Below, one piece after another: positions 3,676 through 17,307 of a DNA stretch of 20,305 nt. The notes beneath the pieces were generated by a model. The model did no database searches and had not been told where the DNA came from. It saw only the letters and a list, made by a program, of their open reading frames with translations. Source of the DNA: a virus. Made by a program: the position numbers and the translations under genes. How positions within the stretch are numbered: the stretch's first letter is position 1; each line of letters starts with the position of its first letter. Location of the stretch: positions 1 through 20,305 of the IMG/VR virus record IMGVR_UViG_3300031785_000075; one strand, given 5' to 3'.

Positions 3676-3704
3676 TTGACACACTTATAGTATAGTGCTA
3701 TACT
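3676..3704 (+). promoter_or_regulatory. Near-consensus sigma-70 promoter
   Basis: TTGACA (3676-3681) and TATACT (3699-3704) are separated by exactly 17 bases, matching the bacterial housekeeping consensus at 11 of 12 positions. It points right, with transcription expected near 3711, into the structured leader and the beta-barrel gene at 3828. In T4-like phages this architecture marks early promoters read by unmodified host RNA polymerase. Confidence 0.8.
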
Positions 3705-3705
3705 A
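3688..3705. repeat. Palindrome overlapping the -10 element, operator-like
   Basis: TAGTATAG (3688-3695) and CTATACTA (3698-3705) are perfect 8-base inverted arms around a 2-base centre. The right arm contains the -10 box at 3699-3704. A symmetrical site here could be bound by a dimeric repressor that occludes RNA polymerase, but no regulator is identified. AT-rich -10 regions can be palindromic by chance. Confidence 0.5.
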
Positions 3706-3710
3706 AATAC

Positions 3711-3810
3711 CATTACATAGAACAACGGGATCGAAAGATCGTGCCCCTGCGTAGAATGTAAAAATCTTTAGTCGAAAGATTTTCCATCCGCAGGTTTTTT
3801 AGTATCTGCG
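3711..3810 (+). ncRNA. Structured 5' leader or small RNA with mutually exclusive pairings
   Basis: Between the promoter and ATG 3828 lies a 117-base non-coding stretch with dense potential structure. Hairpin A is GATC (3729-3732), a GAAA GNRA-type tetraloop, then GATC (3737-3740). Hairpin B is AAAATCTTT (3761-3769), loop AGTCG, then AAAGATTTT (3775-3783), nine perfect pairs. An outer stem pairs CCTGCG (3746-3751) with CGCAGG (3789-3794) around hairpin B and is followed by six T. Two alternatives compete: CGCAG (3789-3793) can instead pair with CTGCG (3806-3810), and ATCTTT (3764-3769) can pair with either of two AAAGAT copies (3734-3739, 3775-3780), which sit in a repeated TCGAAAGAT. This looks like an attenuator or a free ~90-nt small RNA. 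I cannot tell whether it matches a known cyanophage RNA family such as the manA motif. Confidence 0.55.
3746..3800 (+). terminator. Terminator-like structure inside the leader (possible attenuator)
   Basis: The stem CCTGCG/CGCAGG encloses hairpin B (3761-3783) and its 3' arm is directly followed by TTTTTT (3795-3800). This is the layout of an intrinsic terminator, although the G+C stem is only six pairs and it closes over a second hairpin rather than a short loop. It would end transcription before the beta-barrel gene unless CGCAG pairs with the downstream CTGCG. Confidence 0.45.
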
Positions 3811-3827
3811 AGATAAAATAAAACAAA

Positions 3828-4187: not shown

Positions 4188-4207
4188 GTCGGTAACGATC
4201 TAATACA

Positions 4208-4236
4208 AAGACCTCTACATAGTAGGGGTCTTTTTT
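4208..4236 (+). terminator. Intrinsic terminator after the beta-barrel gene
   Basis: AAGACCTCTAC (4208-4218) pairs with GTAGGGGTCTT (4222-4232) through 11 pairs including one G-U, with a 3-base loop, running into a T-rich tail (4231-4236). It closes the transcription unit that starts at about 3711. Confidence 0.88.
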
Positions 4237-4900: not shown

Positions 4901-7567
4901 ATGCCTCTGAATTTTCCAAATAGTCCGTCGTTAAATGACTTCTTCGTTGCAGGAGGTCGTAGATGGCAGTGGAATGGAACTGCATGGCAGAGAATACCTG
5001 ATCCTGGTGCTCAGGGTGTGCAAGGTGCAACAGGTAATACAGGACCTACTGGTGCTCAAGGAACCGCAGGTGCTCAAGGTGCTGCTGGTGCTCAAGGTGC
5101 GACTGCTGCTGCTGGTGCTCAAGGTGCTGCTGGTGCTCAAGGAGCCGCTGGTGCTCAGGGTGCACAAGGTGTAAATGGTAACTTTGGTGGAGCTTCTTTT
5201 GAATACACTTTCCTTACAAATACTACAGACAGCGATCCTGGTGCTGGAAGTTTAAAGTTCAATAATTCTAATTTAACATCGGCAAGTATTCTTTATATTG
5301 ACGATACTGATGGGGGGAGCACTAATACAGATATACAACCATTTCTAAGAACCATTGATGACTCTACATCTACAATCAAGGGTCATGTAAAAGTTTCAAC
5401 CAAAACAAATCCAGAAGAATTTGTTTTATATACAATCGCATCATTAGTAGAGGCAACAGGATATTTTAAAGTCACAGTAGCGTATGTTTCAGGTAGTGTT
5501 ACATCATTTACGAATAGTTCTGATGTATCCATTACATTTGCAAGAACTGGTGACGCTGGATCAACAGGTGCTCAAGGTGCTGCTGGTGCTGCTGGTGCTC
5601 AAGGTGCTCAAGGTGCTTCTGGATCTGCTGGATCTCAGGGTGCTGCAGCAGGATTAACAATATCTACAGGTGCACCTAGTAGTCCAAGTGCTGGCGACTT
5701 ATGGTGGGATAGTGATGATGGTGATCTACACACTTACTATAATGATGGAAATAGTAGTCAGTGGGTGGCGATAAACGTAGGTCCTATGGGTGCTCAAGGT
5801 GCTACAGGATCAACTGGTGCTCAGGGTGCTACAGGAAATACAGGTGCTACAGGTGCTCAGGGTGCTTCTGGATCTGCTGGTAGCACAGGTGCTCAAGGTG
5901 CTCAAGGTCATCAAGGTGCCACTGGTGCTACTGGTGCGACTGGTGCTCAAGGTGCAACAGGACCAACTGGTGCTCAGGGTGCAACAGGATCAACAGGACC
6001 AACAGGACCAACTGGTGCTCAAGGTGTAACAGGAAACACTGGTGGCACAGGTCCAACTGGTGCACAAGGTGCTCAAGGTCATCAAGGTGCTACAGGACCA
6101 ACAGGTGCTCAAGGTGATACTGGTGCTGTTGGTGCACAAGGTGCTCAAGGACATCAGGGTGCTACAGGACCAACAGGTGCTCAAGGTGCTACTGGTGCTA
6201 CTGGTGCTCAAGGTGCAACAGGACCAACAGGTCCGACAGGACCAACAGGTGCTCAAGGTGCTACAGGACCAACAGGTGCTCAAGGTGCTACAGGTGCAGG
6301 TGGATCAACTGGTGCTCAAGGTGCTACAGGTGCAGGTGGATCAACTGGTAACACAGGTGCTCAGGGTGCAACAGGACCAACAGGACCAACTGGTGCACAA
6401 GGTGCTACTGGTGCAGGTGGATCAACTGGTGCTCAAGGTGCAACTGGTGCTCAAGGTGCAACGGGTTCAGGTGGATCTACAGGACCTACTGGATCAACTG
6501 GTAGCACAGGTGCTCAAGGTGCTACAGGAAGTACAGGTGGATCAGGACCAACTGGTGCTCAAGGTGCAACAGGACCTACAGGACCTACAGGACCAACAGG
6601 ATCCGTTTCGGTATCCAATAACGCAAATAATAGAATCATAACAGCGACTGGTGGAGCAACTGCAAATGCTGAATCAAATTTAACTTTTGATGGAACAACA
6701 TTTGATATTGGTGGAAGCAAAATGAATCTACCTACAGGAACATCTAATCCAAGTTCACCAGTATCTGGATCAAGTTATTTTAATACAACAGCTGCAGAGT
6801 TGAGAATTTATGATGGAACTCAATGGGGTGGACTTGTAGTTAGTAAAGGAACTGCATCTAATCCTGCGTCAAGTGCAGGAGATTTAAATGCCACTGGAGC
6901 ACTTTCACAATATTACTTTAGTCCTGATGGAGGAACAGCTTTCCAACAATGGGCTGCTGGTGGAATATCAAACTTAGGCACAATTCCATCTGGAGGACCA
7001 TCTTGGGTAGGTAGTCATGGTTCAATTGTAATAATTGAGCAAGGGAAGATGAACACAACATCAAGTAAGACTATGAGTCAGGCAAACTTTCTTAAGTTTA
7101 TAGCTGAATCAATAAGTAGAACTAGTAATAACGCTACACCTTATATTTACTGGTCAGTATTTGATAGTGGAACTCTCTGGGGTGTATGGAGAATCCAATG
7201 GAGAAATGCAACGTATAGTTCATGGCAGAGTAATCATAACTACACTGAAGGATCAAATACAGCACCTAGTGGAACTCCATACTCTGATGTATGGAAAACT
7301 GGATCAGGAACTAGTGGTGTTGGAAGTGGTTCTTACACAATTACTAACAATACAAATCTAAATAGAGCAGTTCTACCTGACCAATATTATAATGGTCAGG
7401 GTAATTCTAGGGGTATTCACTATAAGAGATTGAGTTCTGGTGAACATTATCCTTGGAGAAATTCAAGTTATGTTATGAACAGCAATGGATATTTTTATCC
7501 ATCAAGTTCCTATAGCATGGGAACAGATACCAGATACGATCACTACATCTACTTTTCAGACAGTTAA
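4901..7567 (+). CDS. Collagen-like tail fibre protein 1
   Basis: This 888-residue modular fibre starts with a module shared by all three collagen fibres here (residues 1-32: [10 protein letters not shown]...W-WNGTAW). Gly-X-Y repeats follow (36-95), then a beta-domain (96-215) homologous to one in fibre 2. A short second repeat block (217-249) leads to a Trp-rich module (251-296, [19 protein letters not shown]) shared with fibre 3. The main stalk (294-568) holds about 90 triplets, mostly GAQ, GAT, GPT and GST. The unique C-terminus (569-888, rich in Trp, Tyr, Ser and Asn) is the probable receptor-binding tip. In repeats Pro occurs at X and Thr/Gln at Y. Such proteins trimerise as collagen-type helices. 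The 65-residue chaperone-like gene directly downstream fits a fibre-plus-chaperone pair. Confidence 0.88.
5780..6604 (+). repeat. Main collagen-like Gly-X-Y repeat tract of fibre 1
   Basis: About 825 bases of degenerate 9- to 18-base units (GGTGCTCAAGGTGCTACAGG and variants) encode about 90 consecutive Gly-X-Y triplets. The period makes alternative frames open on both strands. Such tracts are prone to slippage and recombination. Shorter tracts of the same type lie at 5006-5185 and 5549-5647. Confidence 0.9.
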
Positions 7568-7792: not shown

Positions 7793-10351
7793 ATGGCTGC
7801 ATTCGATTTCCCAAATAGTCCTAGTGTAAATGATACGTACACCGCAAATGGTACTACGTATACTTGGAATGGGACAAAATGGGTAAGAACCTCTCCTAGT
7901 ATAGGAGCACAAGGTTCTACAGGACCAACAGGTGCTCAAGGTACAACAGGATCAACAGGTGCTCAAGGTGCTGAAGGAAACTTTGGTGGTGCTACATTTT
8001 ATTATACGTTTGAAGCAAACACAACAAATGCAAATCCAGGTGCAGGAGATTTAAGATTAGATAACTCTACACAAAACGCTGCGACAGGAATTTATATTTG
8101 CGATACTGATGAAGATGGAACAGATATAGCATCCTTCTTACAAACTATTGATGACTCTACGAGCACTATCAAGGGTCATGTTAAGATTACTAATAAATTA
8201 GATTCAAGTCAATTCATATTATTTACAATTTCAAGTTTGACTGATAACACAGGTTACTTTGATATTACAGTAAGTCCTGTAGATTCATCAGCGACTAGTC
8301 CATTTAGTGCGAATGAAGATATTTTAATTACTTTTGCTAGAACTGGTGATAAAGGAGAAACAGGTGCTCAAGGTGCTGCTGGTGCTCAGGGAGCCGCAGG
8401 TGCCCAAGGAGCTGCTGGTGCTCAGGGAGCCGCAGGTGCTCAAGGATCTGCTGGTGCACAAGGTAATGCTGGTGCACAAGGTAATGCTGGTGCTCAAGGT
8501 GCAACAGGACCAACAGGTGCTCAAGGTGCTACAGGTTCTACAGGACCTACAGGAAACACGGGTGCTCAAGGTGCTGCTGGTGCTCAGGGTGCAACAGGAT
8601 CAACAGGACCAACAGGACCAACTGGTGCTCAAGGAACTGCAGGTTCTCAAGGTGCAGCAGGTTCAGGAGGATCAACAGGATCAACTGGTGCCCAAGGTGC
8701 AACAGGATCAACTGGACCTACAGGACCAACTGGACCTACAGGATCAACTGGTGCTCAAGGTGCAACTGGATCAGGAGGATCTACAGGTGCACAAGGTGGG
8801 ACAGGACCAACTGGTGCTCAAGGTGCAAGTGGATCTACTGGTTCAACAGGACCTACAGGACCTACAGGACCTTCAGGTTCAGCAACAATATCAAACAATG
8901 CAGACAACCGAGTTATAACTGGTGGTAGCGGAACTAATTTAAATGGTGAATCAAACTTAACTTTTAATGGATCTAAATTAGGAGTGATGGGTTCTCCTTT
9001 ATGTACTATTGATGCATCAAGTGCTTCTGATGCAATTCAAGTTCCGAACGGTACAACAGGAGAAAGACCTTCTGGATTAACAGCAGCTCAACAATACGGA
9101 ATGATGAGATATAATGAGTCACTAGGATTAGTTGAAAAATATGATACTAATGGATGGGGTGTGATAGATAATCCTCCCGTTATTTCAGGTTTCTCAGGTA
9201 TAATTAACGAAAATAATTCTACTACAATAACAGTCAGTGGTAGTAACTTCCAAAGCGGAGCAGTTGTATCCATAGGAGGAGCTGCTACCAGTAATAGTAA
9301 TCGTAATCTAACAACTTCATATAGTAATTCATCAACTCTTACTGCAAACACAAATGCTTCTAGTGTAAATTATGTTGATAATGCTTCATTTAATATCACA
9401 GTAACTAACCCATCTGGATTGGCTAATACTCTAGCTGCTGCTGGAACCATTGACTCTACTTTAACTTGGAGCACAAGTGCTGGTTCACTGGGAACTTGGA
9501 ATGATGGAAGTAATTCAAATAGTGTGACTGTATCTGCATCAGATCCAGATGGAACTTCTGTAACTTACGCTCTTACCTCTGGATCTTTACCACCAAGCAC
9601 AAGTTTAAATACGTCAACAGGTGCGATTTCTACGAGTGGCACTGGAAATCTTAGTAGTAATACAACATATTCATTTACGATCACTGCTACATCAAATAGT
9701 ATTAGTGTTGCAAGGGCATTCTCTATAACAGTTAATCAGACAAAAGATGGAGCCTCTGCTGCTCGTGCAACATCACCAGATTACCTAAGAAATACTCTAA
9801 GCATAACCACAGATGGTTACTATTGGGTTAAAGTGAGTCCAATGTCCAGTGCAAGACAGATGTATATTAATTTTGGTATGCGTGACAGTAAAGATTGGTG
9901 TTTGATGGCTCATTGGAATCAATCAAGTTCAAATAGTGGAAGTCTACAAAATATCAATCAACAGAGTCAAACTGATCATAAAGGTTATGATATTCCTTGG
10001 AAAGGATTCCTTTTTGATGATGATGGTACTCACTATTACTCATACTTTAGTTCATATCAAGCTTATAATAACAGAGGATATGGAAATGGAACTACATCAG
10101 GCGGTAACAAAAGTGGATACCAAGTTTTCATAGGAGGATCTGGGCAAATGGGTTTTTATAACTCTGGTCAACAACCTTGTAACTGGAGTTCTGATAATGG
10201 TATGGTAGGTTCAGGTTACGATGGAACTTGTGGTACTTATCCTACTAGTTTAAGATTTGGTTTTGGTTATGATAGTGATCCATTCATAGATGCATACATA
10301 ACAGGTCAAGTTAAAATGTGGATATGGATGGATAACAAACAACCTTCATAA
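7793..10351 (+). CDS. Collagen-like tail fibre protein 2 with Ig-like domains
   Basis: The 852 residues divide as follows. The shared N-terminal module (1-32, [28 protein letters not shown]) is followed by short Gly-X-Y repeats (38-62) and the beta-domain shared with fibre 1 (63-184). The main collagen stalk (186-362) has GAA-rich triplets first and GPT/GST triplets later. The conserved stalk/tip junction (363-400, [16 protein letters not shown]) leads to an IPT/TIG-like Ig domain (about 460-548, [20 protein letters not shown]) and a putative-Ig (He_PIG-like) domain (about 555-648, with [20 protein letters not shown]). A Trp/Tyr/Gly-rich C-terminal tip (about 655-852) follows, whose start (DGYYWVKV) faintly recalls fibrinogen-like domains. 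It is followed by an oxygenase gene. Confidence 0.88.
8348..8878 (+). repeat. Collagen-like Gly-X-Y repeat tract of fibre 2
   Basis: About 530 bases encode close to 59 Gly-X-Y triplets. The first part is a run of GAQ-GAA/GNA units; the second shifts to GPT, GST and GSG units. The first-half composition differs from the second, suggesting separate expansion events. A short tract also lies at 7904-7978. Confidence 0.88.
8875..8925 (+). repeat. Stalk/tip junction module, copy 1
   Basis: These 51 bases match 12061-12111 in fibre 3 at 48 positions and encode the [17 protein letters not shown] junction. Fibre 1 has a diverged protein-level version ([18 protein letters not shown]). The near-identity marks recent duplication or gene conversion between fibre genes. 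Confidence 0.85.
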
Positions 10352-11389: not shown

Positions 11390-12586
11390 ATGGCTGCCTT
11401 TAATTTTCCAGCGAATCCTAGTAACGGTGATACGTATACACTCAATAGTGTTACGTATCAATGGGATGGTACTAAGTGGGTAAGATATTCAGCAGCAGTT
11501 GGTTCACAAGGTGCAATAGGATCTACAGGTGCTCAAGGTGCTCAGGGTTCTCAAGGTCATCAGGGATTGCAAGGTGCTCAAGCACACATTAGCACATCTG
11601 CACCAAGTAGTGGTGTCAATAATGGTGATTTATGGTGGGAAAGTGATACTGGAGATTTAGCAATATATTACAATGATGGTAATAGTTCACAGTGGATTGA
11701 TATAAACACAGGACCAAGAGGAGCACAAGGTGGCACAGGACCAACTGGTGCTCAAGGAGCAACAGGTGCAACAGGTGCTCAAGGAGCAACAGGACCTACG
11801 GGTGCACAAGGTACTGCTGGTGCTCAAGGAGCTACCGCTGCTCAAGGTGCACAGGGTGCCACAGGCACCACAGGATCTACAGGTAATACTGGTGCTCAAG
11901 GAGCCACTGGTTCAACAGGACCTACAGGACCAACTGGTGCTCAAGGTGCTACAGGTTCAGGAGGTTCTACTGGTGCTCAAGGTGCTACTGGTTCAACAGG
12001 ACCAACAGGTTCTCAAGGTGCGACAGGATCTACAGGTGCCCAAGGTGCAACAGGTTCTTCAGGTTCGGCAACAATATCAAACAATGCAGACAACCGAGTC
12101 ATCACTGGTGGAACAGGAACTAACTTAGTTGGTGAATCAGCGTTTACTTTCAATGGTAGTAGATTAACATTAGACGGTGATCTATGGGTAGAGGGACAAT
12201 CCAATGCAAGTGGTCATTTACGTTTAGTTCATGATTCAGGTAATCAGAATCATGATTACTGGAGGTTTGAATCTAATAAAGATACTCACGCATTAAATAT
12301 TCAAGGTTATGGAACTGGATCATATGTTGATGCACTTACAATCTCTCAGAATACAAGGAGTGTGGGAGTAGTAACGGGTAATATAGATTCAGCAAACTTA
12401 TCAAACCCAGTTGGTGCTGGTCATTCATTAGTTGGATTGTATATTGGTGATGGATCATTATTGTTCAGTAGTGCATTAAGTAGAACAGGTGGATATTATA
12501 TTTCTACAGATGTAAATGCACTTAATGCAGGACCAGTAACTCTAAATAGCAATATGAAAATTGATGGTACTTGGACAATCGTATAG
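11390..12586 (+). CDS. Collagen-like tail fibre protein 3 (short)
   Basis: The 398-residue fibre has the shared N-terminal module (1-32, [28 protein letters not shown]) and a short repeat block (38-64). The Trp-rich module (66-108, [19 protein letters not shown]) is shared with fibre 1. A collagen stalk (108-226) and the conserved junction ([16 protein letters not shown]) follow. The shorter C-terminal domain (about 245-398) contains beta-type repeats ([38 protein letters not shown]) and ends ...[10 protein letters not shown]. It lacks the 120-residue beta-domain of fibres 1 and 2. The C-terminus resembles generic phage 'fibre shaft' repeats rather than a receptor tip. The separate 209-residue protein immediately downstream may therefore supply or extend the tip. 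Confidence 0.87.
11711..12067 (+). repeat. Collagen-like Gly-X-Y repeat tract of fibre 3
   Basis: About 40 Gly-X-Y triplets ([15 protein letters not shown]) with a single interruption near GATAAQG. The unit composition resembles the second half of fibre 2. Confidence 0.87.
12061..12111 (+). repeat. Stalk/tip junction module, copy 2
   Basis: This is the near-identical counterpart (48 of 51 bases) of 8875-8925, marking the border between collagen stalk and C-terminal domain in fibre 3. Confidence 0.85.
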
Positions 12587-15178: not shown

Positions 15179-15406
15179 ATGATTGAAGTACTTGTACAGA
15201 ATGATCCATACAGGTATGTGAAGATGCCTGATCCACTTGATAATGGTCAACCAGACTATCGTATACAGAAGTGGAACACTCACAATGGTTACAAAGATAT
15301 GTACCTTTGTGATAATTTTATGCAGTTGAAAACTGCGATTGATGACTTTGAATACACCAAATGGTTAGATCCTGCAGGTGTGCCTTGCTACGTACATGAT
15401 GTCTAA
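15179..15406 (+). CDS. Small soluble protein of unknown function leading the sugar operon
   Basis: The 75-residue product ([20 protein letters not shown]...[39 protein letters not shown]) is polar and Tyr/Asp-rich, with no membrane segment or recognised motif. It is the first gene after the promoter at 15130-15158 and its last codons overlap the start of gmd, so it is the leader gene of the cassette. I do not recognise a family. Confidence 0.6.
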
Positions 15407-16403
15407 AGTTGCTTTAATTACTGGTATTACAGGACAGGACGGTTCCTACCTTGCAGAACTTCTATTAGAGAAGGGATATGAGGTTCATGGAATCGTTCGT
15501 CGTGCTTCATTAATTAATACTCATAGAATAGATCACATATATGAACAGATTAAACTTCATTATGGTGATCTTACAGATGCGATGAGTGTTACAAATCTCA
15601 TCAAAGATATTGAACCAGATGAGATTTATAATCTAGGTGCACAGAGTCATGTAAAGGTTTCTTTTGAGATACCAGAATACACAGCACAGGTAGATGGTCT
15701 TGGAACACTTCGTGTTCTGGAGGCGGTTAGATTGTTAGGTATGGAGATGAAGACTCGTGTATATCAAGCATCTACATCTGAATTATATGGTGAGGTTCAA
15801 CAAACCCCACAGACAGAGACAACACCTTTTTATCCACGATCACCTTATGGTGTAGCAAAATTATATGGATATTGGATAGTTAAAAATTATCGTGAGTCTT
15901 ATGGTATTCATGCAAGTTCTGGAATTCTATTCAATCATGAATCACCAAGAAGAGGTGAAACATTTGTAACCAGAAAGATCACAAGAGGACTATCTAGAAT
16001 ATCTGTCGGTGAACAAGAGTGTTTATATCTTGGTAACTTAAATGCGAAGAGAGATTGGGGTCATGCTAAAGATTATGTCGAAGCGATGTGGTTGATGTTA
16101 CAGCAAGATGAACCAGATGACTATGTGATTGCAACTGGAGAGCAATATTCTGTAAAAGATTTTGTAGATAAGGCAGCACCATTCTTTGGTTTTAATATTG
16201 AGTGGATGGGTGAAGGTGAACTTGAATTTGGTTATGATTGGAATACAAAAAGAAAAGTAATATCAGTAGATAAAAAATATTTCCGTCCTGCAGAGGTAGA
16301 GTCTTTGTTAGGAGATGCAAGTAAAGCAAAGCAAAAATTAGGTTGGGAACCTAAAATAAGTTTTGATCAACTAATTGAGGATATGGTGCTTTATGGACAG
16401 TGA
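15399..16403 (+). CDS. gmd: GDP-mannose 4,6-dehydratase
   Basis: From ATG 15399 (or ATG 15396, one codon earlier) the product has about 334 residues, close to bacterial Gmd length. It is a short-chain dehydrogenase-fold enzyme: GITGQDG (residues 9-15) is the NADP-binding glycine motif. STSELYG (125-131) supplies the catalytic Thr/Glu and YGVAK (Tyr150, Lys154) the catalytic dyad. The Gmd-specific segment [16 protein letters not shown] is intact at 179-194. It converts GDP-D-mannose to GDP-4-keto-6-deoxy-D-mannose in the cytoplasm. The start overlaps the upstream 75-residue gene, and the end overlaps fcl by 11 bases, indicating one operon. All signature residues are present, so an active enzyme is expected. 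Phage copies like this are probably host-derived. Confidence 0.95.
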
Positions 16404-17307
16404 AAGTAGAGTTTATGTTGCAGGTAATACTGGACTTGTAGGGTCTGCTATTGTTCGTACACTTCATTGGAAAGGTTATACAAATATATTATCAAGTCCA
16501 TCTCATCATTGGGATCTAAGAAATCAGATGGACGTAGAGAGATTCTTTAGAGTGAATGAACCAGAGTATGTCTATCTAGCTGCTGCAAAGGTTGGTGGTA
16601 TAGGAGCAAATGCATATTATCCTGGTCATTTCATCTATGATAATTTAATGATTCAAACAAATGTAATTCACGCAGCAAGAAAGTTTGGTGTTAAAAAATT
16701 ACTTTTCTTAGGATCATCTTGTATCTATCCTAAGTTCGCTGAACAACCAATTACAGAAGATCAATTACTAGGTGGACATTTAGAACCAAGCAATGATTCA
16801 TACGCAATAGCAAAGATTGCAGGTATAAAAATGTGTCAGGCATATCGTAAACAGTATGGTTTCAATACAATCAGTTTGATGCCTACAAACTTGTACGGTC
16901 CTAATGATAATTATGATTTAGATTCATCACATGTTCTTCCTGCAATGATAAGAAAATTTCATGAAGCAAAAGATAAAGTTACACTATGGGGTGATGGATC
17001 TGCAATGAGAGAATTTTTATACGTAGATGATCTCGCTGAAGCAGCATTTAAATGCATGGTAAATTATGATTCAGAAGAGATTATAAATGTTGGAACTGGT
17101 AAAGATATTACAATCAAAGAACTTGCTACTACTATTGCTGATGTGGTAGGATTTAAAGGTGAAGTAGTGTGGGATAAATCAAAACCAAACGGAACACCAA
17201 GAAAAGTTTTAAACGTTGATAAAATAAAATCATTAGGTTGGGAACCAAAAGTTGGTTTGCGTGAAGGTATTGAAAAAACATACGAACTATACAAAGAAAG
17301 TTTATGA
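16393..17307 (+). CDS. fcl: GDP-L-fucose synthase (epimerase/reductase)
   Basis: ATG 16393 gives 304 residues. The N-terminal nucleotide-binding motif is [10 protein letters not shown] (residues 11-20) instead of the usual GHRGMVGSA. GSSCIYP (107-113) contains the active-site Ser/Cys and YAIAK (Tyr137, Lys141) the catalytic pair. [13 protein letters not shown] and [14 protein letters not shown] are fucose-synthase-specific segments. The enzyme epimerises GDP-4-keto-6-deoxymannose at C3 and C5 and reduces C4 with NADPH, giving GDP-L-fucose (also called WcaG). The start lies inside the end of gmd, and its stop overlaps the next ATG (ATGA), so the genes are coupled. Together with gmd it completes GDP-fucose synthesis, matched by the GT11 transferase at 20040. 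Confidence 0.94.

Follow-up and report, generated by a model that had tools for sequence, protein, structure and literature searches.

A conserved structured leader RNA of the Phage_OMP gene in cyanomyoviruses, with an attenuator-like module in one lineage

In the virus record analysed here, a leader of ∼117 nt lies between a promoter (3676-3704) and the start codon of the Phage_OMP gene, and by comparison with its homologs this leader is a genuine conserved structured RNA, beyond what chance would give. Its core, which is conserved in cyanomyoviruses, consists of a hairpin P2, an invariant CAUC, a second hairpin P3 (strand B, CGCAGG, paired with strand C, CTGCG) and a final AG. Leaders of the type present in the window (the whole 20,305-nt stretch of DNA), here called type I, carry in addition what appears to be a lineage-specific attenuator-like module, in which strand B can pair instead with an upstream arm A. 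Comparative analysis established the conservation of the leader, covariation in P2 and P3, non-random A:B pairing, the association of A with a U-run and the linkage to one gene. As to function, the evidence tips slightly towards a cis-acting 5′ leader RNA of Phage_OMP that would work as an attenuator in the lineage found on Prochlorococcus.

RESULTS

Layout of the leader and its downstream gene

Gene content and homologs suggest that the 20.3-kb record comes from a marine T4-like cyanophage. The features of the leader and its gene are as follows, with the basis of each assignment.

3676-3704, + strand: sigma-70-type promoter, TTGACA (3676-3681), 17 nt, TATACT (3699-3704); promoter scan
3727-3746, + strand: 5′ hairpin P1/P1′, GGG-AU-CGA(AAGA)UCG-UG-CCC; motif shared by every type I leader retrieved through the protein
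3746-3751, + strand: arm A, CCTGCG, 5′ strand of the terminator-like stem; pairing with B in 152/152 leaders and arm-swap test
3761-3783, + strand: hairpin P2, AAAATCTTT-AGTCG-AAAGATTTT; covariation, local pairing kept in 89%
3785-3788, + strand: CAUC linker between P2 and P3; invariant in 59 core sequences, which had been selected for it
3789-3794, + strand: arm B, CGCAGG, common to A:B and B:C; arm swap, duplex energies and folding
3795-3800, + strand: U-tract, six T; sequence, with a U-run in 135/152 type I and 0/81 type II leaders
3805-3810, + strand: arm C, TCTGCG (CTGCG at 3806-3810), 3′ strand of P3; P3 covariation
3811-3812, + strand: AG after P3; invariant in core sequences, which had been selected for it, and followed 15 nt on by the start codon
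3828-4187, + strand: Phage_OMP gene (PF24653, formerly DUF680); Pfam 107 bits, cut-off 27
4207-4233, + strand: ordinary terminator-like hairpin 3′ of the gene; terminator scan

The positions of CCTGCG, CGCAGG, the six T and CTGCG, and that of ATCTTT (3764-3769), had been given correctly by an earlier sequence-only reading, which had also called the promoter near-consensus; with 11 of 12 matching bases and a spacer of 17 nt it is indeed the joint-best match in the window, and TTGAC together with the −10 is kept in 154 of 162 homologous leaders. A T4-late-like CTAAATA (3703-3709) overlaps the −10, and nTAAATA is found in 130 of the 162. From this promoter we infer a transcription start near 3711. 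The 3′ strand of the P1/P1′ hairpin extends into arm A. The leader has a predicted folding energy of -27.0 kcal/mol against a mean of -17.8 kcal/mol for dinucleotide shuffles (z -2.8), and it beat 200 of 200 of them.

The Phage_OMP product (119 aa), whose score passes the PF24653 gathering threshold, belongs to a family of cyanophage outer-membrane-protein-like beta barrels annotated as DUF680 in phage genomes. An AlphaFold2 model has six strands and a low-confidence N-terminus, and its matches to PDB structures were weak. Elsewhere in the window, long ORFs with collagen-like G-A-Q-G-A-T repeats (4901-7567, 7793-10351 and 11390-12586) are probably tail-fibre-like proteins, and two ORFs at 15378-17307 resemble, by eye only, the sugar-nucleotide enzymes GDP-mannose dehydratase and GDP-fucose synthase; Rfam covariance models detected no wcaG or manA RNA in the whole window. 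Small annotated ORFs that overlap the leader in related phages, S-TIM4 ORF_223 (L447:519-701) and PRSM4_230 (L082:2391-2501), are probably spurious.

Covariation in the conserved core

Eighty IMG/VR loci were collected via the downstream protein, and their upstream DNA was read. In a 59-sequence core alignment all 10 base pairs of P2 and P3 had changed on both sides, so the compensatory changes in homologous leaders on which the sequence-only reading had staked itself are present throughout both hairpins. Paired cells in P2 and P3 amounted to 89.4%, compared with 65% after shuffling and at most 56% when the columns were slid; none of 500 shuffles reached the covariation score, and sliding partner columns by 1-3 abolished the covariation signal. 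The P3 helices were 98.9-100% paired in the 59 core sequences, a percentage that favours P3, as core extraction demanded CATC, a five-pair P3 and AG. Protein searches had supplied the leaders themselves, and lists to which no such filter was applied show the P3 variants as well as CAUC. Pair 1 of P3 was U-A in 30 and C-G in 29 sequences, pair 3 C-G in 47 and U-A in 11, and pair 4 G-C in 29 and A-U in 26. A mutual-information scan of the core alignment, run with no structure supplied, put the pairs of P2 and P3 at the top. A scan of this kind on A1 and A2, aimed at pseudoknots, again recovered chiefly pairs of P2 and P3, with no further helix that was convincing. The G-U pairs fit the + strand. 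P2 is conserved in structure and variable in sequence.

Further helices were considered and rejected. An upstream helix P0 (UUACAU:AUGUAA) occurs in the window's clade, and across leaders 37 of 300 permutations were as good, which is no excess. The sequence-only reading had also proposed a second pair of exclusive partners for ATCTTT, through a repeat of TCGAAAGAT. The repeat does exist, at 3731-3739 and 3772-3780, but the pairing of ATCTTT with the upstream copy, possible in the window, reaches ≤-5 kcal/mol in only 2.6% of 153 homologs, 89% of which retain the local P2 hairpin; the switch built on this repeat was dropped, as its pairing is not conserved among homologs and the repeat is put down to chance.

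Two leader types

Type I leaders have the order promoter, GG..CGAAAGATCGT..CC hairpin, A, variable P2, CATC, B, T-run, C, AG, ATG. Their arms vary: A is CCTGCG or CCCTTTGCG, B is CGCAGG or CGCAAGGG, and C is CTGCG, CTTGCG, CCCATGCG and others. Leaders whose B is CGCAAGGG in place of CGCAGG often have CCCTTTGCG as A, and their C is CTTGCG, CCTTGCG or CCCTATGCG. Type II leaders, obtained from more distant Phage_OMP genes and by blastn, have neither A nor the T-run and keep P2, CATC and P3 (e.g. CUGCGGGUAACCAUUCCGCAAG). A U-run was found in 135 of 152 type I leaders and in none of 81 type II P3 loops, and the A:B stem ends 0-1 nt 5′ of it. The 17 type I leaders that fail the U-run test include several with no U-run at all; L039, L064, L374, L413 and L099 are natural variants of this kind, in which arm A is kept (e.g. 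CGCAGGAATAGTATATCTTGCG).

The two types differ in their phages. Searches by blastn with the window-type leader returned only phages isolated on Prochlorococcus and single-cell marine virus records, plus one chance match (E 0.7), whereas type II leaders were found by blastn in 207 phage records, nearly all of them Synechococcus phages, Syn9 among them. P-RSM4 has a type II leader despite its isolation on Prochlorococcus MIT9303; experimental evolution of its relative S-TIM4 used hosts of both genera, Prochlorococcus and Synechococcus (PMC6224464). Of the leader structure drawn by the sequence-only reading, the B:C hairpin is therefore common property, and the terminator-like part is lineage-specific, the Synechococcus phages having neither A nor the U-tract.

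Two additional elements were seen in the collection. Upstream of P2, the type II leaders L186, L238, L174, L184 and L092 have a conserved GCCUCAAYUACUCGC, often inside a hairpin (CAAACC..GGUUUG in L238) and sometimes followed by an internal sigma-70-like promoter before P2; a second element, at the RNA or the DNA level, may lie here. A palindrome, AACTGKCACA...TGTGMCAGTT, recurs between or near promoter and leader core in L006, L012, L013, L083, L127 and L242, and in many cyanophages.

Competition between A:B and B:C

All 152 distinct type I leaders can form an A:B duplex of ≤-8.5 kcal/mol, a level reached by 5.5% of shuffled A arms, and all 152 a B:C duplex of ≤-7.5 kcal/mol, which supports the earlier proposal of competing stems that share CGCAGG. 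Exchanging arms between leaders weakened A:B from -11.5 to -10.7 (sd 0.19) and B:C from -9.7 to -8.2 (sd 0.27), and in both cases none of 5000 permutations, which ignore relatedness among the leaders, was as good as the native combination. A:B escapes the terminator scan, which is limited to loops of 3-8 nt; the loop of A:B is of ∼37 nt and includes P2.

Folding of the window leader at increasing RNA length predicted A:B for 3′ ends at 3794-3808 and B:C from 3810 on, with B:C plus the 5′ hairpin once C has been made. For RNAs ending at the U-tract, more than 3 A:B pairs were predicted in 141 of 152 leaders; for longer leaders (n=152), more than 3 pairs were predicted in B:C for 90 and in A:B for 67. 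In these models the A:B and B:C states would be near balance and ordered in time, so that the terminator-like hairpin can form first. The P1′ hairpin forms in predicted read-through structures and overlaps A, its sequence being too conserved to show covariation; in L012 an extended P1′ is predicted to take up A in a 9-bp helix.

Copy number, gene linkage and known RNAs

Of 23 phage records, 21 have a single match to the core model, apart from one weak additional match (E 0.15); podovirus S-RIP1 has none. Two DNA-pattern scans independent of the protein gave 166 stretches, 154 of which have Phage_OMP 80-110 nt downstream; the others run off contig ends (8) or lie on unrelated contigs (4). P-SSM2 has two DUF680 genes and one RNA copy, upstream of one of them; the second gene (L085:3125-3481, adjoining pstS) has no leader RNA copy. 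In 151 Prochlorococcus genomes and 300 of the family, the core model gave no host copy that we accept: the one convincing match is directly upstream of Phage_OMP, on a contig of a single-cell genome that is likely phage, and two weak matches, antisense over the end of a host gene, were taken as chance.

The sequence-only reading had suggested a comparison with known RNAs such as wcaG, manA and PhotoRC, and the leader matched none of them. With all 4227 families of Rfam 15 (including manA, wcaG, PhotoRC-I/II and the glutamine riboswitches), nothing passed gathering cut-offs over the leader, either in the window or in homologous loci of both types, and relaxed searches (E<5) gave no more than chance-level matches there. 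As a positive control, manA and PhotoRC-II were picked up by these searches near some homologous loci: within ∼2 kb of homologous leaders, manA lies at L015:1377-1564, L075:1540-1735 and L065:1355-1552, and PhotoRC-II at L008:1230-1322 and L102:2259-2353. In the open-access literature we found no described RNA upstream of Phage_OMP/DUF680.

DISCUSSION

A model for the type I leader

In the type I leader, A:B and the U-run provide the GC-rich stem directly before a U-tract that is expected of an attenuator. We suppose that when RNA polymerase is at the U-tract, A would capture B to form the terminator hairpin, and the U-tract would then terminate or pause transcription. If P1′ retains A, or if the polymerase reads on, C would be made, P3 (B:C) would replace A:B and the gene would be expressed; the core P2-CAUC-P3-AG, just upstream of the ribosome-binding region, would then be part of the readable mRNA. 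A protein, ion or metabolite might set the choice. The sequence-only reading had seen the logic of an attenuator here, and its terminator-like hairpin with U-tract stands. The part that does not is B:C as antiterminator: polymerase has already passed the U-tract when C is transcribed, so B:C comes too late to prevent termination at that point. P1′ alone is in place in time and shares bases with A, and the candidate antiterminator is thus the 5′ hairpin, which likely plays this role in type I leaders, with P3 presumably a structure of the readable message. Against an efficient terminator, the A:B stem unusually encloses ∼37 nt with P2. As type II leaders have no A and no U-run, attenuation would not be the general function of the leader.

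A broader version of the model, which we put forward as tentative and consider somewhat unlikely, is that strand B is shared by the terminator and the message hairpin so that a single strand exchange decides both, that the terminator module occurs only in Prochlorococcus phages, where it would tune an outer-membrane protein costly in other hosts, and that such leaders would form a new class of leader RNA.

Other explanations

An unlikely but serious alternative is that the leader acts mainly on message stability or translation. P2 and P3 would then make up a structured 5′ UTR, which might protect the mRNA, from host RNase E for instance, or serve as the binding site of a regulator near the ribosome-binding region; A:B would be a folding alternative and the U-run an unpaired loop. 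This reading is consistent with the presence of P2 and P3 in both types, including type II with no A or U-run, with the position of P3 close upstream of the start codon (GCGAG to ATG 13-18 nt across leaders), and with the up-regulation of host RNase E during cyanophage infection reported in PMC9692554. However, it leaves unexplained why A:B pairing is kept in 152/152 type I leaders and why U-runs occur only with A. Sequestration of the Shine–Dalgarno sequence by P3 was rejected: many type II leaders have, by eye, a purine-rich SD-like stretch of their own downstream of P3 and ahead of AUG, which P3 would leave unmasked.

We consider it improbable that the leader is a metabolite- or ion-sensing riboswitch, with P1′ (GG..CGA(AAGA)UCG..CC) as aptamer and A:B versus P1′ plus P3 as expression platform. 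The near-invariance of P1′ beside a variable P2, its overlap with A and the balanced states would suit such a device, but P1′ is small for an aptamer and could be read equally well by a protein, the Rfam riboswitches give no match, and the core motif precedes no host gene in the genomes searched. Still less probable, and in our view remote, is a self-terminated trans-acting small RNA of ∼90 nt released at the U-tract; promoter, compact fold and U-tract would fit it, and against it C and AG are conserved beyond the U-tract, C covaries with B, the linkage is always to the same gene, and several type I leaders have no U-run. A DNA-level element or chance complementarity with no functional RNA, for which the intergenic, AT-rich context and the chance TCGAAAGAT repeat might speak, is scarcely credible and for P2 and P3 is refuted by covariation: both sides of the pairs change in a compensating way, and G-U pairs, which fit one strand only, are among the changes.

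Relation to known leader RNAs

The attenuator that we favour for type I resembles transcription attenuators with intrinsic terminators in its exclusive stems, its GC-rich hairpin directly before a U-tract and an upstream hairpin that shares bases with the terminator 5′ arm. It differs from them in that the terminator loop contains a whole conserved hairpin, the terminator 3′ arm serves again in a hairpin that is completed beyond the U-tract, and no leader peptide or ligand is known here. Like manA (RF01745), wcaG (RF01761) and PhotoRC-II (RF01717), it is a structured 5′ leader RNA of T4-like cyanophages; unlike these, which have other downstream genes and whose covariance models do not match it, the Phage_OMP leader is single-copy and tied to Phage_OMP. 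Comparative genomics has also described Ocean-V (RF01714) and Ocean-VI as marine-only candidate RNAs (Weinberg 2010, PMC2864571): Ocean-V, an Rfam family, gives no match to the leader, and Ocean-VI, listed with no Rfam accession, lies outside the Rfam comparison. With no match among the families of Rfam 15, we regard the leader as a new family within a kind of RNA that is already known.

Significance

When S-TIM4 was evolved experimentally, its ORF224, which is the Phage_OMP gene, acquired many disruptive mutations during passage on Synechococcus WH8102, where together they came close to 100% of the populations; on the other hosts such mutations did not accumulate (PMC6224464). Because ORF224 was disrupted during passage on WH8102, control of Phage_OMP dose is plausible, and it may be relevant to host use. 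Few leader RNAs are known from cyanophages, and the one described here adds to them a well-supported and widespread RNA family, tied to one common gene.
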